From contig CAADWP010000060.1 of NCBI GenBank assembly GCA_900752785.1, positions 1 to 19,668 on the forward strand: a stretch of 19,668 nucleotides of DNA, written 5' to 3'. Each line of letters starts with the position of its first letter. The first letter of the stretch is position 1. Shown piece by piece: positions 4,206 to 19,336 of this stretch. The stretch is from an uncultured Ruminococcus sp. GTDB lineage: Bacteria; Bacillota; Clostridia; Oscillospirales; Ruminococcaceae. The position numbers and the translations under genes are program-made. The notes under the pieces are model-generated. The model made no database searches and was not told the DNA's origin. It was given only the letters and a program-made list of their open reading frames with translations.

Positions 4206-4243
4206 AAAAAAGACCTGTCCCCAATTTTCGGGCAGGTCTTTTT
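4206..4243 (+). terminator. Intrinsic terminator after birA
   Basis: A 14-bp stem (4207-4220 with 4230-4243, one G-T wobble) with core GACCTGTCC/GGGCAGGTC begins with an A run and ends in TTTTT. This is a strong bidirectional-looking terminator six bases after the birA stop. It would also stop antisense transcription arriving from the convergent glycan operon. Confidence 0.9.
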
Positions 4244-4438: not shown

Positions 4439-5056
4439 TTATTTATAAAAATCCCGAAGCATATCGGCTAATTTTTCCGGCGCTTCAATGTTCACCTCAT
4501 GTCCGGAAGCGTTAATTATTTGAAGTCTTGAATTTTTCAAAATATTCGTCAGATGCATAGCGGCTTTTTGGTTAGCACGATCTTTTTCACCGAGAACTAT
4601 TAATACAGGACAAGTTATTTTATTTATAGAACTGCTGAAATCCAACTTCATCATAGATCTACAAAGCTGAATAAACTCCTTTTTCTTAAATCCTGTTTGT
4701 TGAAACGCAGACTTCGGCATAAATTTAAAAAGAATATTTTGAATTTTAAGCAATAGTTTAGGCATTTTATACTGCGCTGCAATAAGAACCAAAGAATTTA
4801 TTTTTTCAGGATGGTCTATCGTATAATTCAAAGCCAGTATTCCGCCAAGAGATAAACCGCATATATCTATTTTGTCGTCTAATTTATCGCAGAGATCCGA
4901 AAACTCCTTATACAGATTTTCATATACCGCATCTTTTCCTTGAATCATTTCAGCCAAATCCGGACATACGCTGAACTCGGCAGAATTCAAGTGTAAAATA
5001 GTTTTTTCCCAGCTAACGGATGTTTGTCCCAATCCATGCAGGTATATTCGTTTCAT
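4439..5056 (-). CDS. Small alpha/beta-fold hydrolase, last gene of the glycan operon
   Basis: The 205-residue protein has a complete hydrolase triad: nucleophile elbow GLSLGG with Ser69, Asp159 in GEKDR, and His186 in SGHEVN. An HGLG oxyanion segment lies at residues 7-10. There is no signal peptide or membrane helix, so it should be cytoplasmic, and it is short because the lid region is minimal. The ATG at 5056 is preceded by AAAGGAG; a second ATG four bases upstream is out of frame. It lies 32 bases after the membrane protein stop. A TATAAT (5088-5093) without a convincing -35 could give it some separate expression. Two lines I counted (4741-4800 and 4861-4920) are 30% GC, clearly poorer than a wzt line I counted (53%), so it may be a recent acquisition. 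The substrate (ester, acyl group or lactone) is unknown. Confidence 0.83.
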   Translation of the reverse strand: MKRIYLHGLGQTSVSWEKTILHLNSAEFSVCPDLAEMIQGKDAVYENLYKEFSDLCDKLDDKIDICGLSLGGILALNYTIDHPEKINSLVLIAAQYKMPKLLLKIQNILFKFMPKSAFQQTGFKKKEFIQLCRSMMKLDFSSSINKITCPVLIVLGEKDRANQKAAMHLTNILKNSRLQIINASGHEVNIEAPEKLADMLRDFYK

Positions 5057-5088: not shown

Positions 5089-6051
5089 TTATAATACTTT
5101 TTCAGTATGTTCAGCAGATTTTACAACCGAATACATTCTTCCGATAACAAAAGCGAAAATATCCGCAACAACAGAAGATACCCTCATTACGAGGACAAAA
5201 AGCACTATCTTATCGGCAAATTTATCTCCGCTGACAAAAATCATTACGCCCTCGCGGATTCCGATACCTCCGGGCGCGCCTGGAGTTACAAAGCCTATTA
5301 TCCATGCAAACATGAATGCGCCCGTAAGCGTAAGAATCTCCGATACCTCAGCTTCACTGCCCAGAATCATTTTCAGCGCGGTAAAGTACATCGCCGCCGA
5401 AAGGATTGCGTTGAAAAAATAATAAAGCGCACCGCTAAGAAGCTTTGGAAAGTTCCGGCGGCTGAATGCCTTTGAATATCTCGAAAGATATTCTCCGAGC
5501 TTTTCACGAAATTTTATAAATACGAAAATGCCAAGAACAGCGGCTGCGGCTATGATACAGACTGCCGCGATAACAAGATTTCTGCCGTATTTTTCAAGGA
5601 GTTCCGCAATAGCTCCGCCCAGCAGGACAACCGAAACGATACCGGTTGAAATAACGCAGAAAGCTATGTCAAATACGGTAGCGCAGGCTACGTCGACATG
5701 GCTTATTTTCATGTCTGCCGCAAGCTTGTTCCTGCCAACATACTGAAAAACGTTTCCCGGAAGATATTTATATATATTGGACTTAGTATAGACGGGCATT
5801 GCCGCAGAAAACGGAATTTTACGTCCCGACAGCGACTGCGTAAAAACAAGCCACGGGTAGCATCCAAGCACGATAAGCAGCGTTTGTACGGCTGCTCCAA
5901 CGGCAAGAGATACGATAACTCCTGTTGATCTGAAGCTTTTCGGATCAATGTCCATATCAGCAAATTTCTTGACAATGAACGCAAGAGCAGCGATAACTAT
6001 AATGTTACCCGTCAGCTTCATAAGCCTTTTCAAGTTTATTTTATCTTTCAT
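5089..6051 (-). CDS. LPG-synthase-TM / UPF0104 family membrane protein (flippase-like)
   Basis: The 320-residue integral membrane protein has about eight hydrophobic segments (for example 15-30, 44-70, 122-147, 158-178, 205-230, 238-256 and 281-303). It carries two signatures of the lysylphosphatidylglycerol-synthase transmembrane (AglD/UPF0104) family: YKYLPGN at 94-100 and TPGAPGGIGIREG at 256-268. There is no cytosolic aminoacyl-transferase domain, so it is not MprF itself. Members occur in polysaccharide and glycosylation loci and are often proposed to move lipid-linked sugars across the membrane. Next to a CsbB-like GT2 and a YfhO-like protein, a flippase role is a reasonable inference but not proven. 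The ATG overlaps the upstream GT4 gene by 11 bases and its ribosome binding site is weak, implying translational coupling. Confidence 0.85.
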   Translation of the reverse strand: MKDKINLKRLMKLTGNIIVIAALAFIVKKFADMDIDPKSFRSTGVIVSLAVGAAVQTLLIVLGCYPWLVFTQSLSGRKIPFSAAMPVYTKSNIYKYLPGNVFQYVGRNKLAADMKISHVDVACATVFDIAFCVISTGIVSVVLLGGAIAELLEKYGRNLVIAAVCIIAAAAVLGIFVFIKFREKLGEYLSRYSKAFSRRNFPKLLSGALYYFFNAILSAAMYFTALKMILGSEAEVSEILTLTGAFMFAWIIGFVTPGAPGGIGIREGVMIFVSGDKFADKIVLFVLVMRVSSVVADIFAFVIGRMYSVVKSAEHTEKVL

Positions 6052-7198
6052 TCTTTTGAATTTTCTCCGTAAGGCGCATTACGACCTCGTTCATTCTGTC
6101 CCATGAATAGCGATAAGCTTCTTTACGCACATTTTCGGTAAATTCCTCCGACCTGTTTTCCTTAAAAAATCGAATAACCGCTTCGGCAAGAGCATGGGGA
6201 TTCTTTGGTTCAACTATATAGCCTGTTTTCTCATTGGTAACGACCTCCGGCAATCCGCCAACATCAGTCACAATAACAGGCTTTTCAAATCCGTATGCGA
6301 TCTGGACTATTCCGCTTTGGGTAGCCGATTCATACGGAAGCGCCACAAGGTCGCAGGCAGCAAAATATTTTTCGATTCCGCTGTCGGGTATATAACCGTC
6401 AACTACAGTTATATTGCTTTCAACTCCGCTGTTTTTTATAAGAGACATATATTCGTCCTTATCTTCACCGAATTCTCCTACGATCATAAGGCAAACGCCG
6501 CCGTCCGCTTTAACTATCTCCGGCATTGCTTTGATAAGATGCTTTAATCCCTTATATTCTCTTACAAAGCCAAAAAACAGCAGAACCTTTTTGTCCAGCG
6601 GTATTCCGAGCGTTTCTCTTGCCTCAGCATAACTCATATTCTTTATTTTAAAAGCATTAAAAGTAGGAATAACAGTAGCCTCATAATTCGGACGCCTCAC
6701 AATACTGTTCAGATCATCGGCGTCCATTTTTGAATGCGTTATAAAACCTGCTCCCCTTTTTAGAACGCATTTTGTAAGGAACTTATCCAATGGAAATCGC
6801 TCGTGCGGAAAAACGTTATGACAGACGAAAAGCTTCGGTATCTTCCTTGTCAACAAGGACAGTCCCGTATAACAGGGCGAAAAATAGGGATGCCACCATT
6901 GAATTATAACATAATCGGGATCAAGGCTTTTTATTTTTTTAGCCGTACTTATCCAGTTAAAAGGATTTGCGGTGTTAATTAGGAACTTTGTATCGCTGAT
7001 CTTAAAGGTATCGTTATCGAAATCACGCTGCTCTTTTTTGAAAAGCAGCTTTGGGTACTGCATTTTATATGATACGGTAAAGACCTCGAAATCTTTTTTC
7101 AAATTCTTCACCATAGAGCCTGTATAGTGGGATATACCGCCCTTAAAGGGATAAACGGGACCTATCATAACGATCCTTTTTTTACTGCTCTTTTTCAT
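6041..7198 (-). CDS. GT4 family glycosyltransferase
   Basis: A cytoplasmic retaining glycosyltransferase of about 385 residues with the GT-B fold. The N-terminal acceptor domain starts with IGPVYPFKGGISHYTG. The C-terminal donor domain contains GFVREYKGL and a segment SGIVQIAYGFEKPVIVTDVG, followed by GLPEVV. The usual GT4 E-x7-E pair is replaced here (Gln/Ile at the corresponding places), a variant seen in a subgroup of bacterial polysaccharide enzymes. The sugar donor is unknown. I chose ATG 7198 because AGGA (7207-7210) sits 8 bases before it; a GTG at 7219 and an ATG at 7207 would lack correctly spaced sites. The first 17 bases overlap the end of the GT2 gene. Confidence 0.9.
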   Translation of the reverse strand: MKKSSKKRIVMIGPVYPFKGGISHYTGSMVKNLKKDFEVFTVSYKMQYPKLLFKKEQRDFDNDTFKISDTKFLINTANPFNWISTAKKIKSLDPDYVIIQWWHPYFSPCYTGLSLLTRKIPKLFVCHNVFPHERFPLDKFLTKCVLKRGAGFITHSKMDADDLNSIVRRPNYEATVIPTFNAFKIKNMSYAEARETLGIPLDKKVLLFFGFVREYKGLKHLIKAMPEIVKADGGVCLMIVGEFGEDKDEYMSLIKNSGVESNITVVDGYIPDSGIEKYFAACDLVALPYESATQSGIVQIAYGFEKPVIVTDVGGLPEVVTNEKTGYIVEPKNPHALAEAVIRFFKENRSEEFTENVRKEAYRYSWDRMNEVVMRLTEKIQKNER

Positions 7199-8150
7199 TT
7201 TCTTCATCCTTTTTTTCACAGTCGGCGCGTCTTACCCTATATTGTATATCCTCGAGAAGCTTTCTGTTGGCGGCTATAGTATCACCGAGCAGTCCGAGTG
7301 TAACGGTCTGGAAGCCCATCATGAGGAAAATTGCCGTAAGTATAAGAGATTGTACGTGACCGCTGCCTTCGCCCATTCCGAGAAGTATCAGGAAACGAAC
7401 GCCCAAAGCTCCTCCAAGAAGCATGAATATCAGTCCGAGCGTCATAAAAAATTTAAGAGGCTTGTACATTACAAATGATCGGACAATGACGGTCGAAGAA
7501 CGCTTCATATACCTCCACATACTTGAAAACAGCCTTGACGGGCGCGTTTCAGGGTTTGTCCTTATCGGAACGGAGGTCATGGCAATTTTATTGTTGCCTG
7601 CCTGAATTATAGTTTCAAGAGTATAGGTATACTCGTTTACTACATTGAGCCGCAGCGCCGCTTCTCTCGAGTAAGCTCTGAATCCACTTGGAGCGTCGGG
7701 AATATCGGTTCCTGAGGCAGCACGAACCACCCAGCTTCCGAGATGCTGAAACTTTTTCTTTTTCCATGAAAAATGCTCAGTTTGGTCGATCGGACGTTCA
7801 CCGATAACTATATCGGCTTTTTCGTCCAGTATAGGACGGACTATCTTTTCAATATCCGCGCCGCAATATTGATTGTCGGCGTCGGTATTTACGATTATAT
7901 CCGCACCGAGATGCAGACAAGCGTCGATACCTGCCATAAATCCCTTAGCTAAGCCTTTGTTCTGCTTAAAAGAGACAATATGATGAAATCCCAGTTCCTT
8001 TGCGCGCGCTACAGTATTATCCTTACTGCCGTCGTTGATTATGAGATATTCTATGGTATCTATGCCGTCGATATGACGAGGCAGATCGTTATAGGCAAGC
8101 TCCAGCGTTTCCTCCTCGTTATAACAGGGGATCTGAATAATAAGCTTCAT
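7182..8150 (-). CDS. DPM1/CsbB-like family 2 glycosyltransferase with two C-terminal membrane helices
   Basis: An inverting GT-A enzyme of 322 residues. It begins MKLIIQIPCYNEEETL, has the NDGSKDNT nucleotide-binding segment (39-46) and the metal-binding DAD at 90-92, followed by a DAPSGFRAY acceptor-loop motif. Two hydrophobic helices (about 233-256 and 267-290) anchor it, with a charged cytosolic tail. This is the architecture of polyprenyl-phosphate-hexose synthases such as GtrB, CsbB and DPM1, which charge undecaprenyl phosphate with one sugar for use outside the membrane. The start is uncertain: ATG 8150 matches the family start but is about 13 bases from AAAGG, while ATG 8162 overlaps the upstream stop as ATGA but has no usable ribosome binding site. 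Its stop overlaps the next GT4 gene. Confidence 0.9.
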   Translation of the reverse strand: MKLIIQIPCYNEEETLELAYNDLPRHIDGIDTIEYLIINDGSKDNTVARAKELGFHHIVSFKQNKGLAKGFMAGIDACLHLGADIIVNTDADNQYCGADIEKIVRPILDEKADIVIGERPIDQTEHFSWKKKKFQHLGSWVVRAASGTDIPDAPSGFRAYSREAALRLNVVNEYTYTLETIIQAGNNKIAMTSVPIRTNPETRPSRLFSSMWRYMKRSSTVIVRSFVMYKPLKFFMTLGLIFMLLGGALGVRFLILLGMGEGSGHVQSLILTAIFLMMGFQTVTLGLLGDTIAANRKLLEDIQYRVRRADCEKKDEENEKEQ

Positions 8151-8158
8151 TTTTATAA

Positions 8159-10627
8159 TCATTCCTTTCCGAGAGTCGGTATGACTTCAAATTCAATTGA
8201 TTCAAGCGGAATCCCCACCATACGATTATCGTCGGGATTTGCGAAACGCGTATCCCAAAGCTCAGTTTCAAGCTCTATAAGATTTTCGCCGTCGTTTATA
8301 AGTTCCTCCGGAACTGTTACTTCTGCGCCTGAATTGATATTTGAGGAGTTGAATTCCGTTTCACCGGCTTTTATGCCGTTTATATAGACAGTAACGTCAA
8401 TTTCGGTCTTTCCGATTTTATCAAACGGTATTCCGCAGCCCAGATTTATCTTCATGCTGTAGTCGTCTGGACAAAGCTTCGTCATGATTTTAGTTTTTTC
8501 CTCAGCCGACCAGCAGAAGTTTCCCTCCACAGCCGAAAAGCCTGAGAAGTACTGATAATCCCTTTCAGCAGAATACCCAAGCTTATACTTTTCATAGGAA
8601 TAAACATAGATATTATCCTTGACCTGCCAAAATCGGTGAGGCATTATTTCATACTTATTTGAACGATTCAGATCATCCTCGGAGTGATTGACAATATTTC
8701 TATAGCATACAACGTATTCGTCGCCGAAAAGCTCCTTATTTGTAATGCGCAGAACTCGTGCGTACTTTTTACTTAGCTCCTCAAGCTGTTTTTCATTCTT
8801 GCTGTCCTCGGGGTACACATCAGCGTCTGTAAGAGCTTTCAGCGGCATCCAGAGTTTTGCAGCATAATCCACGTCAATAACAACGCAGCAATCGTCATAT
8901 ATTACATCGGTTACATCTTCAAGCACACTCCATTCCATGCGCGTGTCGTCTTTCTCATTCCGCAGGAACAAGGAATATGGAGAAATACAGATAAGACCTG
9001 CCGCAGCGGAGGGATAAATAACCTTTCTACCCAATCTGTCAAGAGTAAGCATTCCGAAAATAACAGCAATCGGCATAAACGGCGCAAGATAGCGCGAATA
9101 ATAATAGTAATGCTGAATATTCGGACGCAAAAATGCAGAATAAACAAGTATGCAATAAAAAAACGAAAGAAACATTACGAGTCTTGAATTTTTTTCGATA
9201 AAGAAACGCGGAGATTTTACCGCGAAAAAGAACGAAAGAGGAAGCACAACTATGCCGCCGGCAAAGAGAAATCCCAGTATAGAAGTGAACATACCGTACT
9301 TCCAAATACCATTGTAGGTTATGATAAACACAGGAGCAACCATGATCGCCGACATGAACAGCCTAAAAATCCGATTATCGGCAGCTCTTTTGTTTATCCC
9401 TTTTATGGCGGACTTTTCGGTTTTTTTCATAACTATGAGCACATACGCTGTTGAAACGGCTATGAGAACGGCGCTTACCGCAATTACGGCGGAAGTGATA
9501 TTGTTAACATTTATGCCTCCGACAAAAACACTGCCGTAATTATTCATAGTATACATGGGCTGAACCTGTCTCATCATGAAATAGCTCGCAAGATAACCTG
9601 CCGTTACGCCCGGAGTAAGTATTGCGTACTGCTTTTCACGGGTAAAGAAATACATTCCGCCGTATATCATGATGAAAAGTGGGAGCATTGTATAGATAGA
9701 AACATGATAACATCCAAAAACCGCTACGGGTATTACAGACAGCCATTTTTCCCTCGGACGCTCGTCGTCGGTAATAAAAAAGAGAAAGGCCGCAATAATG
9801 ACTGTAAGGAACATTTCAGTAAGCGAAGATTTTGCCACCCACAAAACTATCGGCGAAAGCGCAGTCATAATACAGGCACACAGGCTTGAAGCCTTTTTCA
9901 GTTTAAGGTTACGGCAGATAAAATATACCAGAAAAATCGTAAGTATGTAAAACACTGTTTCAATATCCAGCATATTTTCCATACCGAAAAGCTCTCCCCA
10001 CATGGCAAGCATCGAAGTATATGTGGGAATACCATGAATAATGCCCGATACCGGACTTATATTGCGGTCATAAACAGTATCAGGATAATCTTTACTTTGA
10101 ATATCGTACCCCCGACAATAATTTTTCACACCGTATTCAAAACTTAATTTCTGCTCATCAGTCTCAAGAAGATGATACTCCTCAAAGTCCTTTTGACGTG
10201 CATTGTCGTCATTCATAAAATATAAGGCTTGTACCTGATATACGCCTTGATCCTGCCCCATGCCGAATATCTCGTTTTTTACCGAAACAAATGGCAATGC
10301 GACAATGCAGACTATAATGGGTATAATAACGTCTTTAAGCGAAAGATCAAGTTCAATAAGCTTCCTCAGCTTCATTCCGTTTCTTCTGCGGACGGCGACC
10401 GCCACTCCCCCCAAAACGGCATTAAGTATCATTGACCCAAAAGCTGCCCTAAAAAGAGAGTACCTGTCAATAACAAACAGTCCCATGCTTACAAAAATAT
10501 AATTGAAAAAGAATAAAATAGTACCCATTACCGCCGCTTCGAGTACATTTCTTTTCCTGAACCACACAGCGGCAGTCCCCAAAGTAAACAAAAAGCCACA
10601 AATACATACTATCAAAAATATATTCAT
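8159..10627 (-). CDS. Large polytopic membrane protein, probable GT-C / YfhO-like glycosyltransferase
   Basis: An 822-residue protein with about a dozen hydrophobic segments in residues 1-565, then a soluble C-terminal part of about 250 residues. After the fourth helix, a large outer loop contains GMGQDQGVYQ with Asp126, in the place of the acidic catalytic motif of GT-C enzymes. A KSSLTEMF segment follows later, also GT-C-like. The soluble tail ends in a beta-rich stretch (VTVYINGIKAGE, then a run ending ENLIELE) that could be a carbohydrate-binding sandwich. I do not recognise a named family. Size and layout resemble B. subtilis YfhO, which uses a lipid-linked sugar made by CsbB, and a CsbB-like gene is directly downstream here. 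It could instead be a polymerase or ligase. The ATG lies 7 bases beyond the preceding gene stop. Confidence 0.8.
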   Translation of the reverse strand: MNIFLIVCICGFLFTLGTAAVWFRKRNVLEAAVMGTILFFFNYIFVSMGLFVIDRYSLFRAAFGSMILNAVLGGVAVAVRRRNGMKLRKLIELDLSLKDVIIPIIVCIVALPFVSVKNEIFGMGQDQGVYQVQALYFMNDDNARQKDFEEYHLLETDEQKLSFEYGVKNYCRGYDIQSKDYPDTVYDRNISPVSGIIHGIPTYTSMLAMWGELFGMENMLDIETVFYILTIFLVYFICRNLKLKKASSLCACIMTALSPIVLWVAKSSLTEMFLTVIIAAFLFFITDDERPREKWLSVIPVAVFGCYHVSIYTMLPLFIMIYGGMYFFTREKQYAILTPGVTAGYLASYFMMRQVQPMYTMNNYGSVFVGGINVNNITSAVIAVSAVLIAVSTAYVLIVMKKTEKSAIKGINKRAADNRIFRLFMSAIMVAPVFIITYNGIWKYGMFTSILGFLFAGGIVVLPLSFFFAVKSPRFFIEKNSRLVMFLSFFYCILVYSAFLRPNIQHYYYYSRYLAPFMPIAVIFGMLTLDRLGRKVIYPSAAAGLICISPYSLFLRNEKDDTRMEWSVLEDVTDVIYDDCCVVIDVDYAAKLWMPLKALTDADVYPEDSKNEKQLEELSKKYARVLRITNKELFGDEYVVCYRNIVNHSEDDLNRSNKYEIMPHRFWQVKDNIYVYSYEKYKLGYSAERDYQYFSGFSAVEGNFCWSAEEKTKIMTKLCPDDYSMKINLGCGIPFDKIGKTEIDVTVYINGIKAGETEFNSSNINSGAEVTVPEELINDGENLIELETELWDTRFANPDDNRMVGIPLESIEFEVIPTLGKE

Positions 10628-10634
10628 GTTTTAT

Positions 10635-11828
10635 TCATGCCCTTTCTGAAATTTTGTCGATAAGCTTTTGGAAATTGTCGATAATAACATCCCAACGGTA
10701 ATTTTTCTCAATGTATCTCGCAGCATTTTTACAAAGCATGGAATACTCTTTATCATGAGTGAAAATGTAATCAATGATCCCCTCGAACTCAAAATAATTC
10801 ATATAGTAAAGTCCGCCGTTGCTCTTTGTACAATGACCTTTAAGAACTTCGCATACGCCGTTGACTATAACAGGCACGGAAAGGGTCATAGCCTCCAGAA
10901 CGGAAATCGAAAGGCTCTCAAATTTGGATGGCAGAACAAGCGCCTTTGCAGCCGAAATTCCGCTGAATTTATCCTCCTCGCTGACGAAGCCAAGACTGAT
11001 TATGTCCTGATGCTTCGGTATTTCGCATACTGCCTTACCCATAAGCACAAGTTTTAAGGAACTGTCAGGCCGGCGTTTTTTATATTCCATAAAATATTTA
11101 AATAACGTCGGGCAATCTTTACCCTCGTCAATTCGTCCAACATAAACGATGTAGTTTTCAGTAATTCCGAATTTTCGGCGAAATGCTTCTCCGTCAGGCT
11201 CGCATGGAACTTCAACTCCCGTTCCCATTACGCGGCAGTCGATTTCTTTCGTTTCCGGAAATAAATCCTGCACAAGAGCTTTTTCTTCATCGGTAAGGAA
11301 AACATACGCCTTCGGCATTGGAAAAAGCCATTCAAAGAGCTTGAAGCGTATAAACGGTTCTTCATGAGCAGTCGGAATAAATATTGATTTTTCAGCAACT
11401 TCCGGCATTCCCATAACGGTGAGATAGTAGAGATATGTCACGAAAATAAAAGCGTCATAGTCGTCTTTATGCTCTCTGATATAATCCACCGCCGATGGGC
11501 AGTAGGGCCCCTGCTTATCGAACCATACCTGCTCCGCAGCTTCATCACGATCTCCTTCCGAAACGCGGCTTAGATACGAAGCATTATACTCGTTAAAATC
11601 TTTGGCGCGCGGCTTTTCAACTGTAAACCGCCTTACATGAACTCCGTTTATATCCTCCTCGTCGGCGGTATATCGGTTCGCCCAGTCGGTGTAATCCATT
11701 GCTTTCGTTGTGATGACTTCAACCTCAAATGCGTCGGTAAGACGCTCCGCAATGAGTCTTGTGTAATATTCCGAACCGCCGTTGACTTCAAGCCCGTACC
11801 GCTGATTGACCAATGCAATTTTTTTCAT
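10635..11828 (-). CDS. GT4 family glycosyltransferase (paralogue of the next gene upstream)
   Basis: A 397-residue cytoplasmic GT-B enzyme. The N-terminal acceptor domain includes YGLEVNGGSEYYTRLIAE; the donor domain has VGRIDEGKD (230-238) and the E-x7-E pair E304/E312 in a SKFESLSISVLEAM segment. It closely matches the upstream enzyme throughout: IPTAHEE versus IPCFHDE, GRIDEGK versus GRKDEGK, and SNGGLYYMNYFEFEG versus SNGGLYFGNYFEFEG. Tandem duplication with divergence is the simple explanation. The start is ATG 11828, preceded by GGAGAG with 7-base spacing; a longer frame would need a TTG at 11843. Four bases separate it from the upstream stop. Donor and acceptor are unknown. Confidence 0.92.
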   Translation of the reverse strand: MKKIALVNQRYGLEVNGGSEYYTRLIAERLTDAFEVEVITTKAMDYTDWANRYTADEEDINGVHVRRFTVEKPRAKDFNEYNASYLSRVSEGDRDEAAEQVWFDKQGPYCPSAVDYIREHKDDYDAFIFVTYLYYLTVMGMPEVAEKSIFIPTAHEEPFIRFKLFEWLFPMPKAYVFLTDEEKALVQDLFPETKEIDCRVMGTGVEVPCEPDGEAFRRKFGITENYIVYVGRIDEGKDCPTLFKYFMEYKKRRPDSSLKLVLMGKAVCEIPKHQDIISLGFVSEEDKFSGISAAKALVLPSKFESLSISVLEAMTLSVPVIVNGVCEVLKGHCTKSNGGLYYMNYFEFEGIIDYIFTHDKEYSMLCKNAARYIEKNYRWDVIIDNFQKLIDKISERA

Positions 11829-11832
11829 TACT

Positions 11833-13035
11833 TCACTCTCCAAGAATATCCCCGAAAAATTTCTTGTACTTTTCCACTATAACGTCCCAATCAAAATGAG
11901 TTCTCACGTAATCTCTGCCGTTACTGCCCATGCGCCATGCAGTATTTTTATGTGCAAGCATATAATCGGCACAGCCCTCAAACTCAAAATAATTTCCAAA
12001 ATAAAGACCTCCGTTTGATTCCAATACAAAATTTCTCGTAACGGAGCATTCCTCGTGAACGAGAACAGGGCGTCCGCATAGCCAGCTTTCCATGATAACA
12101 AGAGAAAAGCTCTCGTTTTTCGAGGGCTGACAAAGAAATTCCGCAGCTCCCAGCGCATTATATTTATCCTGACGGTCAACGAAACCGAGGTCGAGTATCC
12201 TTCCGTTTTTCACAAGCTCCCCGGGCAGGTCGATGCTGCCTCCGCCGATAAGCACAAGCCTAAGATCGGTTTCGCGCCGCTTTATGTATTCGGCAAAATA
12301 CTTAACAAGCGTATGAACATTCTTGCCCTCGTCCTTGCGTCCGGCATAAAGAACGAACTTTTCCCCTATGCCGTATTTTTGGCGAAAATCCGCAGGATCT
12401 GAGACAATATCCGTATCCATTCCGATCCCCATTGTAATAGTCTTTACGCCGCGTTCTGAAAACCGATAAAGCTTTTCCGCAAGTTCAGCTTCGGGCTGAG
12501 CGTTGAATATCATGCCTGCCGCAGTAGGAAATATCTCGCGAAAACGGCTGAGATAGGCATAGGCTTCGTCATGAAAGCAGGGAATCATCACCGACTTTTC
12601 AGGGCATATTTTAAGTCCGTTATAGGTAGTTCCGAACATATAAGGAATAAACACGAACAGCGAATAATCCTCGCTGTGCTGCTCCATAAAAGCGTACAAA
12701 TCGGGGCTGTTTACCATTTCGGCAAGAAAAACGTCCTCCTCCTCAGGAGTTATCGGAATATTGCTCATAAGCTTTGCGTTCACTGCGTCAAATGCCGCCG
12801 CATCGCGCTTTCTCGCCTTAAATCTGCGTATCGGGATTCCGTTCGCCGTTCTGTCCTCGCCCTCTTTATAGTAATTTTCGCTCCAGTCCGCGCCGAATTC
12901 TTTAACGCAGGTAGTGAGTATCTCCACGGGAACTCCTGCATAATGAAGATGCGAAGCTGCCTCGCGAAGCTCCATTTCCGCTCCTCCGGGAATCCCGTCG
13001 GCATACCATGGAATAACAAATCCTATTTTTTTCAT
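11833..13035 (-). CDS. GT4 family glycosyltransferase (paralogue of the next gene downstream)
   Basis: A 400-residue GT-B enzyme beginning MKKIGFVIPWYADGIPGGAE. The donor domain has YAGRKDEGKN (230-239) and the catalytic E-x7-E pair E308/E316 in SKNESFSLVIMES. A conserved NYFEFEG near 348-354 is shared with its downstream paralogue. The ATG at 13035 overlaps the preceding stop as ATGA and has AAAGG six bases before it. Presumed role: adding one sugar type to the growing lipid-linked polymer in the cytoplasm. The paralogue pair may act on alternating linkages, as pairs of GT4 enzymes do in ABC-exported O-antigens, but specificity cannot be read from sequence. Confidence 0.92.
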   Translation of the reverse strand: MKKIGFVIPWYADGIPGGAEMELREAASHLHYAGVPVEILTTCVKEFGADWSENYYKEGEDRTANGIPIRRFKARKRDAAAFDAVNAKLMSNIPITPEEEDVFLAEMVNSPDLYAFMEQHSEDYSLFVFIPYMFGTTYNGLKICPEKSVMIPCFHDEAYAYLSRFREIFPTAAGMIFNAQPEAELAEKLYRFSERGVKTITMGIGMDTDIVSDPADFRQKYGIGEKFVLYAGRKDEGKNVHTLVKYFAEYIKRRETDLRLVLIGGGSIDLPGELVKNGRILDLGFVDRQDKYNALGAAEFLCQPSKNESFSLVIMESWLCGRPVLVHEECSVTRNFVLESNGGLYFGNYFEFEGCADYMLAHKNTAWRMGSNGRDYVRTHFDWDVIVEKYKKFFGDILGE

Positions 13036-14117
13036 TTTATACCTTTCTTTTTATCTATAAAACCTCTGAGCTGTTCTTCAAATACGCCCATTATTTTTTC
13101 ATAAGAGAAATCCTCAAGACGGCTGCGCTGCCCCTCGATAATATGGCTGCGCAGAGCCTTATCCCGAACTATGCGGTCAATAACGCCCGCTGCAAATGCC
13201 GGATCGCTGTCAGGAAGAAGTATCCCGCTGCCGCCCATTGTATCGGGAAGCGCGCTCGAAGCGAGAGCAATTACCGGCACATCAAAAAACATTGCCTCAA
13301 CGACGGGAACACAGAATCCCTCATGCGCGCTCATGCAGACAAATACGTCTGCAAGACGGTAATATGCAAGTATTTCGCTGAATTTTATATGTCCTGTAAA
13401 TATAACATCATCCTCAAGTCCAAGAGCGGCAGCATACTTTCTGAGCCTCTCAAAATAGTTCTCCATTCCCGAATACGAACCTACAAGAATAAGCCTTGAA
13501 TCGGGATTCAGCCGTTTATAGCAGTAAAAAGCGCGTATAACGTCCTCCTGCTTCTTGTTGGGAGAAATTCTTCCCACAAAAACTAAATTTGTTTTTCCGT
13601 CAGAATATTTCTTTACGGTCATCTCGTCCGGCGATTGTTTATAATCATCAAAACGAATAAGTATCGGTCGCACGTCAATGAGACATTTATAGCCCATCTT
13701 CAGCAGGTCTTCACGGTTATAAGAGGAAACAGCCATACAATAATCCACTTTATCACTAAGAAATTTTACGCCTTCGTAGCCATATTCCGAGAGGGCCGCA
13801 GCAGAATTGCTGTAGGGACGAAAAAACTCCGCAGGCGTTATATTGTGATATATCATTATCTTTCGGCACTTCATTTCAGAAAATCGAAAGGTCAGGTCAG
13901 TACCGGTCGATTTATGATAAAGGATAACATCGTCAGCGGCAAGATTTTTCAGCTTGTCCACATTTTTGGCAGAATCCGCAGGCAGCCGCTTGTCAATATT
14001 TTCAGCGTAAACCTCGGATCTAAAACCCATTCGGGCAATAGCCTCCTTTAAAGCGAGGGTATCGTTGCCGATAGCGTCCCCGAAGGAAAGGGTAGGCAAA
14101 AGCTGTATAACTCTCAT
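13032..14117 (-). CDS. GT4 family glycosyltransferase
   Basis: A 361-residue retaining GT-B enzyme. The N-terminus is MRVIQLLPTLSFGDAIGND, an IYHNITPAEFF segment is at 89-99, VFVGRISPNKKQ begins the donor domain at about 179, and the classic E266-x7-E274 pair lies in SAHEGFCVPVVEAM followed by DVPVIA. The IYHNITPAEFF segment resembles mannosyl- and other hexosyltransferases of O-antigen-like loci exported by ABC transporters, but the donor is not proven. The ATG overlaps the coiled-coil gene stop by four bases (ATGA), with AAAGG upstream. It is the first glycosyltransferase after the export and capping genes, so it may act early in assembly. Confidence 0.92.
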   Translation of the reverse strand: MRVIQLLPTLSFGDAIGNDTLALKEAIARMGFRSEVYAENIDKRLPADSAKNVDKLKNLAADDVILYHKSTGTDLTFRFSEMKCRKIMIYHNITPAEFFRPYSNSAAALSEYGYEGVKFLSDKVDYCMAVSSYNREDLLKMGYKCLIDVRPILIRFDDYKQSPDEMTVKKYSDGKTNLVFVGRISPNKKQEDVIRAFYCYKRLNPDSRLILVGSYSGMENYFERLRKYAAALGLEDDVIFTGHIKFSEILAYYRLADVFVCMSAHEGFCVPVVEAMFFDVPVIALASSALPDTMGGSGILLPDSDPAFAAGVIDRIVRDKALRSHIIEGQRSRLEDFSYEKIMGVFEEQLRGFIDKKKGIK

Positions 14118-14617
14118 TGTTCCCGAACCTTTCCAAGCTCCTCGCGAAGAGCGGTATTTTCCTGTTCAAGTCTTTCAAGCCTTAAAATAAGCTCCTTCTG
14201 TGAAAGCTCAATAATTTCTACCCTATCTGCAATATTTTCGTCTTTTTCTAAATTTTCCGAATCGGCAGCCGCATTTACAAGGCAATTCAACGCCTTTACA
14301 GTATTTGCGTTTACATCGTTCTGTTCAAAAACCACCGGCTCTACATAAAATTTCACAAGCTTACGGATAACCTTCTTGAAAAAAACTTTTATGGGATTTC
14401 CGCCGAGATTCTTATATGGCTGGATATAGTAATGGGCGTTTAGATAGCGCATAGCTTCGCTGGCAGCTTCAAGGGAAGCTCCGCTCACGTCGGTTGCCGA
14501 ATGAAAAGGAACGTCCTCAAAGCTAAGCATATCCGAGGTCAGCCCCTGTTCCTTTATATTCTGTCTGATTTGCGCCATTATGGCTTCTATATTGATTTCA
14601 TCCTTAACGTTTTCCAT
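14114..14617 (-). CDS. Small coiled-coil protein with basic amphipathic helix, partner of the methyltransferase
   Basis: A 167-residue protein of no named family that I recognise. Residues 1-22 are helical (INIEAIMAQIRQNIKEQG), and 75-93 form a basic, aromatic amphipathic stretch (KVFFKKVIRKLVKFYVEP) suited to lying on the membrane surface. The tail from about 128 to 167 is a strong predicted coiled coil with Leu/Ile heptads (ELILRLERLEQENTALREEL). There is no signal peptide or transmembrane segment. ATG 14617 is chosen because AGGA is about 6 bases upstream; ATG 14632 overlaps the methyltransferase stop but has no ribosome binding site. Its place between a coiled-coil methyltransferase and the glycosyltransferases suggests a scaffold or chain-length ruler, an inference by analogy with the coiled coil of WbdD. 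Confidence 0.8.
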   Translation of the reverse strand: MENVKDEINIEAIMAQIRQNIKEQGLTSDMLSFEDVPFHSATDVSGASLEAASEAMRYLNAHYYIQPYKNLGGNPIKVFFKKVIRKLVKFYVEPVVFEQNDVNANTVKALNCLVNAAADSENLEKDENIADRVEIIELSQKELILRLERLEQENTALREELGKVREQ

Positions 14618-14628
14618 TTTTTGTCCTT

Positions 14629-15723
14629 TCATTTTACGGCTATGATCGCATAGTCCTGGCTGCCGTAAAGCAGCTCCGATACCTTGTACATAGACTCGTT
14701 GAACTCCTCCGCGCCCTCAACTTTCAGTTCGGGAATAGCAAAGGGCGGTTTGCTGCTTTCGGTGTAAATTATTTCTATATGCTCGAATCCCGCCTTTTCA
14801 AGGCAGTATTTCATTGTCATAGGATGCACAGGCTTAACATGGGAGGGATCTATATAAAAAGCGTTGGTATAAATTGCCAAAGAAGTCGGATTAGGAGTTT
14901 CAATAACGATACATCCGCCCTTAGGGAGTTTTTCATATGCCGTATCGCATATATTTACGATCTGATGAATTTTCAGATGCTCAACTACCTGACCGAGAAA
15001 AATACCGTCAACTTCTCCGCACTGAGCAAGATATTCCGCACCGTCTCCGCATACGGCATTCAGCTGCTTCATATTGCAGTAATCCACATAAGGCTCGTAG
15101 ATATCAACGCCCTTTGCATTTATTCCGTTATCTTTCATCAGCGATAAAAATTCCCCTCGACCGCAGCCGATATCAAGAACATTTTTCTTGTCCTTAAAAT
15201 AAGGAAGATATATCTCCTGAGCTTTTTTTATGCTGTCTATCGAACCGCGAAAACGATTTTCAAAATCAAAATAGTCGATACATTCATAATCTGCGGAACC
15301 GCCCTCAGACTTGACCGTTACAGATGCAGGCGCGTTCTGTTCTGCATTTTTTGCCGCTGCACCGTTTTTCTCAATACGGTTGAGTTTAAGCCGTACAAGC
15401 TCAACGTCCGCGCTGAGAGTTTCAAGAGCGCTGTTGTTGTTGCGGAGATTGACACAGGCTGATTCAAAGTCGTTTCTTAACGCCGGCACCGAGCCGCCAA
15501 TACAGCCAACGATCTCATCTATCTTTCTTTTAAGCGCCTCTGTTTCAGCAGTAAGCGTACCGATCATTTCACGGCACTGCGCTATCTCGGCGGCATTGCT
15601 TTCAAGATCTGAGTTTACCGCCTCAAAGCCTTGTAAAATGCTTAAAAAAAGTTTGTTTTTAAGCATTCCTTTAACGCCCATTTGGGATTTGAAATTATTT
15701 ATAAACATAGTTATATTATTCAT
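14629..15723 (-). CDS. SAM-dependent methyltransferase with N-terminal coiled coil, putative glycan cap enzyme
   Basis: A 364-residue protein. Residues about 34-119 are heptad-rich coiled coil, 120-145 is an Ala/Asn/Ser-rich linker, and 150-364 is a class I methyltransferase. The domain has FRGSIDSIKKAQEIYLPYF ahead of motif I VLDIGCGRGEF (182-192), then VDIYEPY and GIFLGQVVEHL. It should transfer a methyl group from SAM, most plausibly to the non-reducing end of the lipid-linked glycan, as WbdD and related O-antigen terminators do. Unlike WbdD it has no kinase domain, and the coiled coil is at the N-terminus. ATG 15723 overlaps the wzt stop (ATGA) and has GGAAG 8 bases before it; TTG 15738 is an alternative. 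Small-molecule or protein methylation cannot be excluded. Confidence 0.88.
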   Translation of the reverse strand: MNNITMFINNFKSQMGVKGMLKNKLFLSILQGFEAVNSDLESNAAEIAQCREMIGTLTAETEALKRKIDEIVGCIGGSVPALRNDFESACVNLRNNNSALETLSADVELVRLKLNRIEKNGAAAKNAEQNAPASVTVKSEGGSADYECIDYFDFENRFRGSIDSIKKAQEIYLPYFKDKKNVLDIGCGRGEFLSLMKDNGINAKGVDIYEPYVDYCNMKQLNAVCGDGAEYLAQCGEVDGIFLGQVVEHLKIHQIVNICDTAYEKLPKGGCIVIETPNPTSLAIYTNAFYIDPSHVKPVHPMTMKYCLEKAGFEHIEIIYTESSKPPFAIPELKVEGAEEFNESMYKVSELLYGSQDYAIIAVK

Positions 15724-16967
15724 AAATTTATCTTCCAATCATGCTTTATGCGGGCAATTCCGGCATCGCCCAAAGGAGTTATCATCTGAATGCGATAAGC
15801 CTCGCGGTAGTAATCAACGGGGATCCCGTCGCCTGTTTCAATGGCAAAGTCAAAAAGATATTCGCCTGCAAGAAGGTCTACAGATTCGAGAGTTATTGAC
15901 GCAGTTCCGCTTTTTGTCAATTCAAAGGCAGGCAATTTGTCTATCCGAGTATTCGTGCCGTAGCACTGCACTCCGTCGAGGTTAAAAATGCCGATACCGA
16001 TAACGGCATCCTCAACTTTTTCCTTAACGGCATAGTCAATTTTGAACGTTATGCTTTCACCGGTGCGAAATACTCTCTGCTCCGAGCCGTCGGAGGAATA
16101 GGCTGTTATTTTATTTATGCGTGCCTTTCCATTACCCCAGCGTTTTTTCTGTTCCTCATTATCTTCATCATGCTTATCCTTGGCAGCAGACTGTTCCGCA
16201 AGCTCATTACGAGAGCTTTCCTGCATTTTTCTTCCCATAAATTCAAGATATTCAAGATCTATCGCCTTTGGAGCGCCCTCCGCACGGATAAGCCCCTCAT
16301 GTATCCAGATAGAACGGTCACAGATCTGCTCGATCTGACCAAGAGAATGTGAAACGATAACGATCGTAGTACCGTGAGCTTTTATTTCCTTTAGCTTATT
16401 AAAGCATTTAGCCTGAAAATTTGCGTCCCCCACCGCAAGAATCTCGTCAATAAGCAATATATCCGCATCCACGTTTATAGCTACCGAAAATGCAAGCCGC
16501 ATATACATTCCCGAGGAATAGGTCCGCACGGGATTGTCAATAAAATCTTCAAGCTCCGAAAAGTTCACAATATCCTTTAAACGTGCATCTATCTCCTTTT
16601 TGGTAAGACCAAAAATTGCGGCATTTGTATAAATATTTTCCCTGCCGCTCATATCGGGATGAAAACCCGCGCCAAGCTCGATAAGGCTGGAAACTCTGCC
16701 GTTCATGGTTATTGTTCCGCTGTCGGGATACATTATCCTCGTCAACAGCTTTAAAGTAGTACTTTTTCCGCAGCCGTTATGACCGATAAGACCTATAGCC
16801 TCGCCTTTTTTAACGCTGAAGCTCACTTCGCGGAGCACCTGCCGTTCTTCAAATCGGCAGCGTTTTCTGAACAGCAGCCGTTCTTTAAGCTGAGCGCTCT
16901 TGTCAAGATAGACCTTGAAGGACTTTGTTATGTTTTTTACTTCAATTGCAGTTTCATTTTGTTCCAT
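15720..16967 (-). CDS. wzt: Polysaccharide ABC exporter ATPase with C-terminal glycan-binding domain
   Basis: A 415-residue protein. The nucleotide-binding domain covers about 1-245: Walker A GHNGCGKST (62-70), the SSLIELGAGFHPDMSG region typical of the Wzt/TagH class, signature YSSGM (149-153), Walker B ILLIDE (169-174) and switch His206. After a charged linker (about 250-275) comes a beta-rich domain of roughly 140 residues beginning RWGNGKARI, with IGIGIFNLDGVQCYGTN. It matches the Wzt-C carbohydrate-binding domain that in E. coli O8/O9a recognises the capped chain end. TagH-type exporters lack that domain in this form, so a cap-dependent exporter is favoured. GGAGGA precedes the ATG, and the wzm TAA shares one base with that ATG. 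It pairs with Wzm in the membrane. Confidence 0.94.
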   Translation of the reverse strand: MEQNETAIEVKNITKSFKVYLDKSAQLKERLLFRKRCRFEERQVLREVSFSVKKGEAIGLIGHNGCGKSTTLKLLTRIMYPDSGTITMNGRVSSLIELGAGFHPDMSGRENIYTNAAIFGLTKKEIDARLKDIVNFSELEDFIDNPVRTYSSGMYMRLAFSVAINVDADILLIDEILAVGDANFQAKCFNKLKEIKAHGTTIVIVSHSLGQIEQICDRSIWIHEGLIRAEGAPKAIDLEYLEFMGRKMQESSRNELAEQSAAKDKHDEDNEEQKKRWGNGKARINKITAYSSDGSEQRVFRTGESITFKIDYAVKEKVEDAVIGIGIFNLDGVQCYGTNTRIDKLPAFELTKSGTASITLESVDLLAGEYLFDFAIETGDGIPVDYYREAYRIQMITPLGDAGIARIKHDWKINL

Positions 16968-17743
16968 TATAATTCCTCCGCAAAGTGCTTCTGAAGCTTG
17001 TTAAACACTGCGCAGCCGATAAGCAGGAAGAAAACGCCAAGCCCTGCCGCCGAAAGCAGCGTGGTAAGATCGGGGATCCGCTTTTCATAAAGTACAGCGC
17101 GGTAGCACTCGATAACATGGGTCATAGGGTTAAGATTGAACACAGGCAGCAGCTTTTCGGGAACAATAGCTTTGTCGTACATGATCGGCGTCATATACAT
17201 CCAAGCCATTGATATTATGCCGAGAATATGCTCAAGATCACGAAAATAAACGGTTACTGCCGAAGCAAGAAGCGCCATTCCAAGCGCAAGCAGATATTCC
17301 ACAGCCATGATGACAGGCAAAGTCAGCAGCGCCAAAAAATTTATTCCCGCTCCCGAAAAAATAATTACCGCAAAAATCACTATAAAACAAAGCAGCATAT
17401 TTACAAAGCAGCTCGTCACATATGAGATCGGTATGACCATTCGCGGAAAGTATATTTTTTTGATAAGATCCTTCTGCGCCACCACAGAAGCGGCTCCAAC
17501 GGTGATCGAGGAGGAAAAGAAAATCCATGGTATGAGAGCAACAAAAAGGTAAAGGTAGTAACGTTCTATATTTGTTTTAAGAATGAACGAAAAGACGATA
17601 GTATAAACTATAAGCTGGAAAAGAGGATTGATAAACGTCCAGAGAAAACCGAGAACCGAGCCTTTATAACGGCCGCGGAGATCTTTTTTAACAAGACTGA
17701 AAATCATTTGTCTGTACGCGTACAATTCCTTGATCGTATCCAT
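16967..17743 (-). CDS. wzm: Polysaccharide ABC exporter permease
   Basis: A 258-residue ABC-2 type permease with six hydrophobic segments. The N-terminal interface helix DLRGRYKGSVLGFLW is the Wzm/TagG hallmark, and it is followed by NPLFQLIVYTIVFSFIL. A later IYFPRMVIPISYV segment and PIMYDKAIVPE plus NPMTHVIECYR near the C-terminus are also typical. It would form the channel for lipid-linked glycan export with Wzt. The start is ATG 17743, with AAAGGAG six bases upstream; the longer frame would use a TTG at 17764. It is the first gene of the operon, directly behind the promoter at 17777-17805. TagG (teichoic acid) is the alternative, but the Wzt-C domain next door argues for Wzm. Confidence 0.93.
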   Translation of the reverse strand: MDTIKELYAYRQMIFSLVKKDLRGRYKGSVLGFLWTFINPLFQLIVYTIVFSFILKTNIERYYLYLFVALIPWIFFSSSITVGAASVVAQKDLIKKIYFPRMVIPISYVTSCFVNMLLCFIVIFAVIIFSGAGINFLALLTLPVIMAVEYLLALGMALLASAVTVYFRDLEHILGIISMAWMYMTPIMYDKAIVPEKLLPVFNLNPMTHVIECYRAVLYEKRIPDLTTLLSAAGLGVFFLLIGCAVFNKLQKHFAEEL

Positions 17744-17776: not shown

Positions 17777-17805
17777 ATTATATCATATATTTTTTTAATA
17801 TGCAA
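17777..17805 (-). promoter_or_regulatory. Sigma-A promoter of the twelve-gene glycan operon
   Basis: On the minus strand TTGCAT (17805-17800) and TATAAT (17782-17777) are spaced by exactly 17 bases, with an A/T-rich spacer. The transcript would start near 17770, about 27 bases before the wzm ATG, leaving no room for a riboswitch or leader control. No other convincing promoter is visible inside the tightly packed operon. Confidence 0.82.
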
Positions 17806-17950: not shown

Positions 17951-19249
17951 TTAAACAGCAGCTTTCTTGTCAGTCTTGTTCGCCGCCTTATCGGGAACGC
18001 TGACTTTCTCGATCTCAGCATTAAGCGCACGCAGCTTGCCCTCCATACAGTCATAGCCACGTTCGATATGGAAAATATCCTCGATTTCGGTAACACCCTG
18101 AGCAGCTAAACCTGCAATAATAAGAGCTGCGCCGGCTCTGAGATCGCAGGCTTTCACGGGAGCTCCCATAAGATTTCCCGTACCCTCGATAAGAGCAACC
18201 TTGCCGTTTACGGTAATATTCGCGCCCATTCGTCTTAATTCGTCAACATAACGGAAACGCTGTTCCCAAACGCCCTCCGTAACGATGCTCGTGCCCTCTG
18301 CAAGAGTGAGCAGCGTAGCGATCTGCGGCTGCATATCGGTAGGAAAGCCGGGATGAGGAGTAGTCTTGACATTTGCCTTTACAAGAGGACCATCGCACCA
18401 TACGCGGAGACTGTCGTCATACTGCTCGATATTTACGCCGATCTTTTCAAGCTTTTTCGTTATGGATTCCAAATGCTTCGGGATAATATTCTTGATAAGC
18501 ACGTCGCCCTTTGTAGCGGCAGCGGCTATCATAAACGTCCCCGCCTCTATCTGGTCGGGAATTACGGCATAATTCGTACCGTGAAGCCTCTCAACGCCGC
18601 GAATCTTGATAACGTCCGTACCTGCTCCCATGATATTTGCTCCCATAGAATTAAGGAAATTCGCGAGATCAACGATATGCGGCTCTTTTGCGGCATTCTC
18701 AATAATTGTAAGACCGTCTGCCTTTACAGCGGCAAGCATAGCGTTCATCGTTGCTCCGACAGAAACAACGTCAAGAAAAATCTGACTGCCGATAAGCCGC
18801 TGAACTTTGAGGTCTATCATTCCTTGACTGAGTGTATAATCCGCACCGAGAGCCGAAAAGGCTTTAAGATGCTGGTCAATGGGACGGTCACCGAGGGGAC
18901 AGCCGCCCGGCATAGATACTCTTGCCTTGTTGAACTTTCCAAGCAGAGCGCCGAGGAAATAATAGGAAGCTCTCATTTTTCTGGCGGTCTCATAGGGAAC
19001 GCAGAAGCGGTCGATACCCGTAGGGTCGATCCTGTAGACATTTTTATCAATATTCTGCACATCAGCGCCCATTTCGCTGAGAATGCGCAGACAGATGTTC
19101 ACATCGCTGATAGAGGGGACATTCTCGATAACACACGGCTCGTCCGACAAAATCACAGCAGGAAGAATAGCTACTGCGGCATTTTTAGCGCCGCTTATAG
19201 TTACTTCACCGTAAAGCTTCCGTCCGCCCTTAATAATAAATTTATCCAA
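17951..19249 (-). CDS. murA: UDP-N-acetylglucosamine 1-carboxyvinyltransferase
   Basis: A 432-residue enzyme that transfers enolpyruvate from PEP to UDP-GlcNAc, the first committed step of peptidoglycan synthesis, in the cytoplasm. It has Lys22 in SGAKNA, the catalytic and fosfomycin-target Cys117 in MPGGCPLGDRPID, and the DQIEAGTF and GFPTDMQPQ segments, all intact. Length is normal. The start is TTG 19249: family proteins begin (M)DKFIIKGG, and AAGGAG (19259-19264) lies 9 bases upstream. An upstream ATG at 19372 would add 41 lysine/arginine-rich residues partly encoded by a hairpin repeat, which I reject. The C-terminal KTDKKAAV tail is a small extension. No strong terminator is visible between it and the wzm promoter, so read-through into the glycan operon is possible. 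Confidence 0.96.
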   Translation of the reverse strand: MDKFIIKGGRKLYGEVTISGAKNAAVAILPAVILSDEPCVIENVPSISDVNICLRILSEMGADVQNIDKNVYRIDPTGIDRFCVPYETARKMRASYYFLGALLGKFNKARVSMPGGCPLGDRPIDQHLKAFSALGADYTLSQGMIDLKVQRLIGSQIFLDVVSVGATMNAMLAAVKADGLTIIENAAKEPHIVDLANFLNSMGANIMGAGTDVIKIRGVERLHGTNYAVIPDQIEAGTFMIAAAATKGDVLIKNIIPKHLESITKKLEKIGVNIEQYDDSLRVWCDGPLVKANVKTTPHPGFPTDMQPQIATLLTLAEGTSIVTEGVWEQRFRYVDELRRMGANITVNGKVALIEGTGNLMGAPVKACDLRAGAALIIAGLAAQGVTEIEDIFHIERGYDCMEGKLRALNAEIEKVSVPDKAANKTDKKAAV

Positions 19250-19336
19250 ATGAATTCTCTCCTTAATTTTTCGGAAAAATCTTTTTATCTGCTTCCGAGT
19301 TCTTTCTTTTGTTTTGCAGCTATCTGCAACTTTAGG

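Follow-up and report, generated by a model that had tools for sequence, protein, structure and literature searches.

The operon and its gene products

We analysed a stretch of 19,668 nucleotides (nt) of contig CAADWP010000060.1 from an uncultured Ruminococcus sp. (GCA_900752785.1), and this whole stretch is referred to as the window. A minus-strand operon of 11 genes was located from 17743 to 5089, and it probably serves the synthesis, ATP-binding cassette (ABC) export and decoration of a surface glycan. All genes lay on the same strand with overlaps or gaps of ≤7 nt, in the sequence wzm, wzt, methyltransferase (mt), cc, gtA, gtB, gtC4, GT-C, GT2, gtD and LPG_synthase_TM. The genes were as follows (aa, amino acids; CBM, carbohydrate-binding module; GT, glycosyltransferase).

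16967..17743, minus strand: wzm, ABC-2 type export permease (PF01061, E 3.6e-18)
15720..16967, minus strand: wzt, ATPase (PF00005) with a C-terminal Wzt_C domain at residues 274-404 (PF14524, E 1e-28)
14629..15738 (probable ATG 15723), minus strand: mt, methyltransferase with an N-terminal coiled-coil arm (PF13489, E 4.6e-16)
14114..14632, minus strand: cc, small 172-aa protein with a short C-terminal coil; motifs DMLSFEDVP and KVFxKKVIRKLxKFYVEPVVxEQN conserved
13032..14117, minus strand: gtA, GT4 enzyme (PF00534, E 3.3e-29)
11833..13035, minus strand: gtB, GT4 enzyme (PF00534), with relatives in 70 of 120 sampled genomes of the genus
10635..11843 (probable ATG 11828), minus strand: gtC4, GT4 enzyme (PF00534)
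8159..10627, minus strand: GT-C glycosyltransferase with a C-terminal CBM35-like domain (residues about 680-818)
7182..8162, minus strand: gt2, polyprenyl-phosphate sugar synthase of the ArnC/DPMS/GtrB type (PF00535; PDB matches ArnC, DPMS and sll0501)
6041..7219, minus strand: gtD, GT4 enzyme in a variable slot (PF00534, E 3.6e-29), absent or replaced in relatives
5089..6051, minus strand: LPG_synthase_TM (PF03706/UPF0104) membrane protein (PF03706 above cut-off, E 1.1e-8)

The largest listed overlap was 38 nt, from the GTG start of gtD into gt2, so the true gtD start was probably later. An earlier note on this DNA had named Wzm and Wzt with a C-terminal domain, and both were present, with PF01061, PF00005 and PF14524 all above the Pfam cut-off. 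The top PDB match of Wzt was 8dku (E 8e-77), which we take to be Aquifex aeolicus Wzt. The alignment ended before the A. aeolicus cap-pocket residues, so there was no transfer at the residue level. The C-terminal domain (CTD) of A. aeolicus Wzt is described as binding the 3-O-methylated end of a rhamnose-mannose O-antigen (PMC9445017).

The coiled-coil methyltransferase was also found. Its residues 153-369 matched PDB 3dli (E 1e-48), and the heptad periodicity of its N-terminal arm was equalled by 0 of 500 shuffles. Across 37 relatives' loci, the arm varied from 117 to 222 aa on a near-constant catalytic part of 207-229 aa. These lengths, for which the first ATG was assumed, were obtained for 37 of 41 mt rows, and L039, L044, L058 and L099 were dropped by the motif or start rule. 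From the sequence, we infer that mt acts as a chain terminator on a coiled coil, and a variable arm on a near-constant enzyme would fit a ruler for chain length. In the Klebsiella and Escherichia coli systems, the coiled-coil arm of the terminator is reported to be a molecular ruler (PMC11231755).

A coiled-coil partner of this enzyme had been proposed as well. The 172-aa cc protein did carry a C-terminal coil, but the coil was weaker, the same periodicity being reached by 32 of 500 shuffles, and cc went with gtA-gtB. There were 264 cc relatives at E <= 0.001, of which 22 were aligned. In L102-L104 and L112, cc stayed with gtA-gtB, and wzm, wzt and the methyltransferase were outside those fetched regions. 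The view of cc as a mere methyltransferase partner was therefore rejected, and cc was read as a glycosyltransferase-side factor. In these four genomes, the minimal cc-gtA-gtB units adjoined birA, and wzm-wzt-FkbM-type enzyme genes lay elsewhere in the same genomes.

The four GT4 enzymes, the GT2 enzyme and the LPG_synthase_TM protein agreed with their Pfam families (PF00534, PF00535 and PF03706). In the case of the large membrane protein, the earlier reading as YfhO/GT-C-like was borne out in its second part. The protein folds as GT-C with a C-terminal CBM35-like domain, but no YfhO match was found in Pfam (E <= 1) or NCBIfam (E <= 0.01), and its sole Pfam match was PMT_2, below the cut-off. 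The GT-C fold is common to YfhO enzymes and this protein, but the fold does not fix the family. GT2 carried two C-terminal hydrophobic segments, and it has the features of a membrane-linked GT-A enzyme that would make a polyprenyl-phosphate sugar.

LPG_synthase_TM was a candidate for the flippase of this polyprenyl-phosphate sugar. No GtrA or Wzx flippase was found in the operon by Pfam. GtrA genes outside the operon, present in 27 of the 29 genomes of relatives, left this role less certain, and the argument that LPG_synthase_TM must be the flippase for want of GtrA was rejected. In Thermohalobacter (G025), LPG_synthase_TM adjoined a GT2 split over two frames, and no GtrA match was found in that genome. 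Archaeal PF03706 proteins near AglD- and STT3-like proteins are predicted to be flippases (PMC5898192). According to the same source, the archaeal arrangement is similar in that an AglD-like glycosyltransferase, a UPF0104 protein and an STT3/PMT-like enzyme adjoin; it differs in that it serves protein N-glycosylation and in that AglD fuses the glycosyltransferase and UPF0104 domains. The operon offers a bacterial context for this predicted flippase role.

Conservation, sugar supply and the proposed pathway

Conservation of the gene order had been suggested as a check and its lack as a refutation; among these relatives, the order was conserved for the core of the operon. A scan of species genomes with a GT-C alignment gave 69 loci, mostly from Ruminococcus, Oscillospiraceae and other clostridia. 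The order wzm-wzt-cc-gtA-gtB-GT-C was kept in 42 of the 60 loci with >7.5 kb upstream of GT-C. Among the 57 loci with >3.5 kb downstream, GT2 directly followed GT-C in 46, and GT2 and then LPG_synthase_TM followed in 37. Upstream and downstream orders were kept together in 33 of the 51 loci visible on both sides. Since the loci were baited with GT-C, these counts were biased toward GT-C-bearing operons, and a gtB-based sample was therefore added, which corrected the bias in part (20 of 42 gtB-positive, GT-C-negative genomes were fetched). The GT-C gene itself was swappable. Among 120 genomes of the genus, gtB was present in 70 and this GT-C in only 28, all of them gtB-positive; in a wider family sample, GT-C was present in 4 of 197 (one, G160, being a partial 76-bit match). 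In two variant operons (L101 and L109), the gene of the FkbM-type enzyme was separated from cc or gtA by those of an 841-aa GT4-type protein and a 644-aa protein. The 841-aa protein of L101 had two matched stretches, and the 644-aa protein had no Pfam match.

No initiating transferase was found in the window, as the earlier note had observed in expecting the lipid primer from elsewhere, and an initiator was found in a companion operon of relatives. This operon had the order PGT-ManC-Gmd-GT4-GT4-Rmd (PGT, phosphoglycosyltransferase), with PGT (EPS_sugtrans) and Gmd (NCBIfam) above the cut-off. It lay about 26-35 kb from GT-C on the same contig in 10 of 29 genomes (G004-G010, G012, G013 and G016). 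PGT adjoined ManC-Gmd in four of six companion regions (L089-L092) and not in L093; L094 was cut at the contig start. A PF02397 phosphoglycosyltransferase was present in 29 of 29 relative genomes. The companion operon, the primer and the GDP-sugar genes are known from relatives only, the window's own genome lying outside the comparison.

A TagO-type primer was rejected. A single PF00953 protein was present in 23 of 29 genomes, and those of G008 and G011 were MraY above the cut-off; PF00953 had no match in G017. A second PF00953 protein in Thermohalobacter (L079) was nearer to WecA, below the cut-off of that model. We also observed second, diverged PF00953 proteins of about 360 aa in G021 and G023 (L077 and L081; 44 and 37 bits), which no NCBIfam model matched at 1e-10. 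The main PF00953 proteins of G020 and G021 (L075 and L076) matched mraY below the cut-off only.

With regard to the polymer, Rmd was present in all 29 relative genomes, whereas RmlD of the L-rhamnose route was above the cut-off in 14. The polyrhamnose of the Streptococcus pyogenes group A carbohydrate (GAC) consists of L-rhamnose, and the GAC type of combination, dTDP-L-rhamnose supply with a TagO-type initiator, was not supported in relatives. The Rmd tested from one companion operon had the GDP-6-deoxy-D-lyxo-4-hexulose reductase 2pk3 as its top PDB match (E 2e-74). In addition, L047, L049 and L057 had ManC-Gmd-Rmd-like genes inside the glycan cluster itself, and L043 and L044 had Gmd-Rmd-like ones there (L043 tested by Pfam). 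The companion operon, Rmd and the genes inside the clusters made GDP-D-rhamnose the leading putative substrate, but the operon GT4 enzymes gave no match to a characterised rhamnosyltransferase. Co-occurrence of Rmd as proof of a D-rhamnan was rejected. Rmd occurred in 25 of 197 family genomes, including all four with GT-C. Within the genus it was present in 115 of 120, so co-occurrence says little there. Rmd in 115 genomes versus gtB in 70 indicated that Rmd probably has users besides this operon. This count speaks for a different polymer, another GDP-mannose-derived or mixed glycan, with the GDP-D-rhamnose pathway serving something else. Such a reading would also suit gtA and gtB, which had distant PDB relatives only. 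The genes inside the five clusters and the excess of Rmd over RmlD argued against it, and we considered it doubtful.

Based on the above results, a D-rhamnose-type polymer was retained in a model for the whole operon. An initiator from another operon would prime the chain, and the GT4 enzymes would lengthen it in the cytoplasm, probably by adding D-rhamnose or mannose supplied as GDP-sugars. When the chain has reached a sufficient length, the methyltransferase at the tip of its coiled-coil arm would methylate the growing end. The CTD of Wzt would bind the methylated end, and Wzm/Wzt would then export the chain. Outside the cell, GT-C, gripping the chain by its CBM, would add a side sugar, taking it from a polyprenyl-phosphate donor that would be made by GT2 and flipped by the LPG_synthase_TM protein (or by a GtrA encoded elsewhere). 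We put the probability of an ABC-exported, capped, probably D-rhamnose-type glycan with outside decoration at about 0.68. Which sugars are used, where the methyl group sits, the methyl nature of the cap, the measurement of chain length, the role of a flippase and the last attachment step are putative parts of this model.

In the case of decoration, it is possible that GT2, GT-C and LPG_synthase_TM act on another acceptor, such as lipoteichoic acid or a surface protein, and are merely co-transcribed. CsbB/YfhO systems are described as acting on lipoteichoic acid in several species (PMC8035078), and relatives of GT2 and GT-C in L051, L056, L066 and L067 had neither wzm nor wzt within about 10 kb. 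However, the genes lay inside the operon with a 4-nt overlap, the two-sided order was kept in the 33 loci mentioned above, CBM-like domains were present on both GT-C types, and the GAC cluster provided a precedent (PMC8035078). We regarded another acceptor as unlikely. Decoration of the exported chain was preferred, and the sequence and the comparison supported the earlier proposal that a putative extracytoplasmic decoration module shares a transcription unit with the exporter.

The earlier note had also stated that export and decoration are usually separate loci. Two described systems did not support this. Streptococcus pyogenes gacABCDEFGHIJKL combines ABC export (GacDE) and decoration by GacI/J/K/L in one cluster (PMC8035078), and in Citrobacter O1/O2 a three-component GT-C system is encoded next to the O-antigen genes (PMC11127046). 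As described, the S. pyogenes cluster is likewise Gram-positive, clusters ABC export, a GT-A donor synthase (GacI), a GT-C (GacL) and a flippase, and decorates outside. It differs in the TarO-like initiator GacO, the Wzx-type flippase GacK and a polyrhamnose polymer. In Citrobacter youngae O1/O2 (GT136), a GT-C with a CBM encoded in the same locus is reported to put side sugars on the polymerised O-antigen. Its donor is a pentofuranose from a phosphoribosyl route with a MATE-family flippase, whereas the Ruminococcus operon has GT2 and LPG_synthase_TM.

The capped-export part resembled other systems. A. aeolicus, E. coli O9a and Klebsiella are described with a C-terminal carbohydrate-binding domain of Wzt, a modified chain end and a rhamnose or mannose polymer (PMC9445017, PMC11231755), and O9a and Klebsiella also with a coiled-coil terminator (PMC11231755). 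These are Gram-negative lipopolysaccharide systems, and the O9a terminator WbdD is a methyltransferase-kinase whose catalytic part is N-terminal with the coil behind, the reverse of the Ruminococcus enzyme. No GT2/GT-C module is mentioned for A. aeolicus and O9a in the accessible parts of these sources. The S-layer glycan system of Geobacillus stearothermophilus is similar as a Gram-positive wzm/wzt system with a 2-O-methyl-capped rhamnan and a WbaP-like initiator, WsaP; it differs in L-rhamnose and in attachment of the glycan to the S-layer protein (PMC2943079).

Taken as a whole, the earlier interpretation was partly supported: the finding was real and largely read correctly, and the novelty claimed for it was already known, since export and decoration share one locus in gacA-L (PMC8035078). 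The new points were that the putative cap enzyme and the Wzt reader had been exchanged jointly, that GT-C had been exchanged around a constant donor module, and that relatives carried the initiator in a companion operon. For Ruminococcus flavefaciens-type gut bacteria, the operon provides a concrete model of the surface polysaccharide, pointing to D-rhamnose and the initiator operon. No paper on this polysaccharide was among the literature matches listed.

Exchange of the putative cap enzyme, the Wzt domain and GT-C

Three types of putative cap locus were distinguished, the 59 Wzt loci being classed by tblastn match anywhere within the examined locus. In the window type (class 1), an MT_23-type enzyme accompanied wzt in 40 of 59 Wzt loci. 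In class 2, an FkbM-type enzyme was found in 13 of 59 (PF05050 in the three tested), and these enzymes, inspected by eye, also showed a coiled N-terminal arm. Class 3 comprised 14 loci (L115-L128, of which one was truncated at the end of its contig) in which a further FkbM relative adjoined wzt with a third CTD type. In the four class 3 genomes looked at, cc-gtA-gtB was located elsewhere (L102-L104 and L112).

The CTD of Wzt followed the enzyme type. Among 60 Wzt proteins (59 loci and the window), CTD identity was ≤40% in all 533 mt/FkbM pairs and ≥49% in all 78 FkbM/FkbM pairs. At 76-80% ATPase identity, mean CTD identity was 51% for mt/mt (65 pairs) and 58% for FkbM/FkbM (3 pairs), compared with 31% between the types (157 pairs). 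Trees of the two domains were made from 28 chosen Wzt rows. The ATPase tree grouped L035 with L039 (100/97). The CTD tree put L035 among the FkbM-type loci in one group (99/100), where the ATPase tree required two label changes.

L035 is Ruminococcus callidus ATCC 27760. Compared with its sister L039, identity was 90% for wzm and 79% for the ATPase domain, and 36% for the CTD and 21% for the methyltransferase. In windows along wzt, identity was 68-98% to about column 220 and then 28-50%. Beyond the methyltransferase, it recovered to 75% for cc, 78% for gtA and 80% for gtB. The reversed pattern was observed against the class 2 locus L020, with 59% for the CTD, 50% for the methyltransferase, 37% for cc and 60% for gtA. 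The pattern is what one recombination tract over the Wzt CTD and the adjacent methyltransferase gene would leave.

Several observations weighed against this reading. The clear exchange came from one genome pair and was a single event, seen on one contig of an isolate genome. L035 and L039 also diverged in gtC4 (62%) and GT-C (54%), so the exchange of the CTD and methyltransferase was not the sole change. The CTD tree bore a long-branch warning. L050 combined mt with an unlike CTD, and leaving it out raised the mean for mt/mt pairs of 72-76% ATPase identity from 32 to 55. The third CTD type accompanied FkbM relatives in 14 loci, so enzyme family and CTD type were not one-to-one. In addition, neither methyltransferase type was found in 6 of 59 Wzt loci (L018, L021, L100, L107, L046 and L047), which kept an mt-like CTD (44-58% identity to the window and 30-36% to the FkbM-type L020). 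L018, L021 and L100, the three of the six included in the tree, formed one clade. The genomes of L018, L021, L046 and L047 contained no mt relative at E <= 1e-8, FkbM-type enzymes not being included in that search. In such loci, either another enzyme caps the chain or the transporter no longer needs such a cap.

These six loci and four genomes could also be counted for another explanation, in which the methyltransferase acts on internal sugars or another substrate, the CTD reads an uncapped end or another mark, and the linkage of the two is hitch-hiking. Since mt directly follows the CTD segment, both would be taken by any recombination tract at that place, as this explanation would expect. 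Against it, the left breakpoint of L035 fell within wzt, where it separated the ATPase domain from the C-terminal one, and identity was high again in cc, the gene next to mt. The variation in arm length with a near-constant enzyme would fit a ruler, and coiled-coil terminators are described for Klebsiella and E. coli as a mark of the capped-export pathway (PMC11231755). We therefore judged hitch-hiking to be improbable. ABC-dependent export with terminal capping, as proposed in the earlier note, was preferred, as Wzt_C, the coiled-coil methyltransferase and the joint exchange of both pointed to it.

The putative decoration enzyme was also exchanged. An operon otherwise 70-96% identical had an unrelated GT-C with a CBM, and its GT2 remained 96% identical. 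The alignment of the GT-C slot covered 9 of 12 proteins, with L096, L100 and L113 left out. In L021 (8197-9942), a 581-aa protein starting like the other GT-C type stood ahead of an 822-aa GT-C, and this arrangement was possibly an exchange intermediate.

These results might reflect two independent exchange cassettes on one surface-glycan chassis, namely the cap writer with its reader and the GT-C-CBM decoration enzyme; we gave this view an even chance. The first would pair the writer of the chain-end methyl mark with its reader, in the three combinations observed (MT_23-type, FkbM-type a and FkbM-type b), and a breakpoint inside wzt would allow a species to change its cap by replacing the two together. 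The second would exchange whole GT-C-CBM enzymes of unrelated sequence around an unchanged GT2 and LPG_synthase_TM, so that the same side sugar would be newly placed. If true, Ruminococcus could vary a surface antigen and phage receptor with backbone synthesis unchanged. There are few models of cap writing and reading in ABC-exported glycans, and writer and reader are regarded as matched. If both are naturally exchanged together, this would be a direct test of specificity and would supply pairs ready for domain swapping. No title describing such an exchange was among the literature matches listed.

Promoter, borders and neighbouring genes

The features around the operon were as follows.

17777..17805, minus strand: promoter-like site, TTGCAT-17 nt-TATAAT with an extended -10 (TGa), found by reading the sequence by eye
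4439..5056, minus strand: alpha/beta hydrolase (PF00561), possible 12th gene
4207..4243, no strand assigned: hairpin between A and T runs, from the inverted repeat and the sequence, at the junction of the operon and the convergent birA

The earlier description of a compact run behind one promoter was confirmed in part. The genes were packed on one strand, and a single promoter for the 11 genes was plausible. The -35 of the promoter-like site agreed with the consensus at only 3 of 6 positions, and the site was absent from the list of the consensus scan. The Shine-Dalgarno GAAAGGAG preceded the wzm ATG at 17743 as a good ribosome site. The upstream neighbour was murA on the same strand (17951-19372), and the downstream neighbours birA and a P-type ATPase ran convergent to the operon. 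The hairpin was likely a terminator separating the operon from birA.

Twelve genes had been counted between 5089 and 17743, and 11 were found there. The 12th, the hydrolase gene, lay outside and started 32 nt past the operon. Its GC content (34.8%) was below the 43.2% of the operon, and none of 129 relatives' loci contained a relative. This gene was probably a recent arrival. Between the operon and birA, a 27-nt inverted repeat (4261-4422; arms 96% complementary and 108 nt apart) was also observed. A 23-base piece of it had no exact match across the 129 loci, and the repeat resembled a small mobile element or one like a miniature inverted-repeat transposable element.

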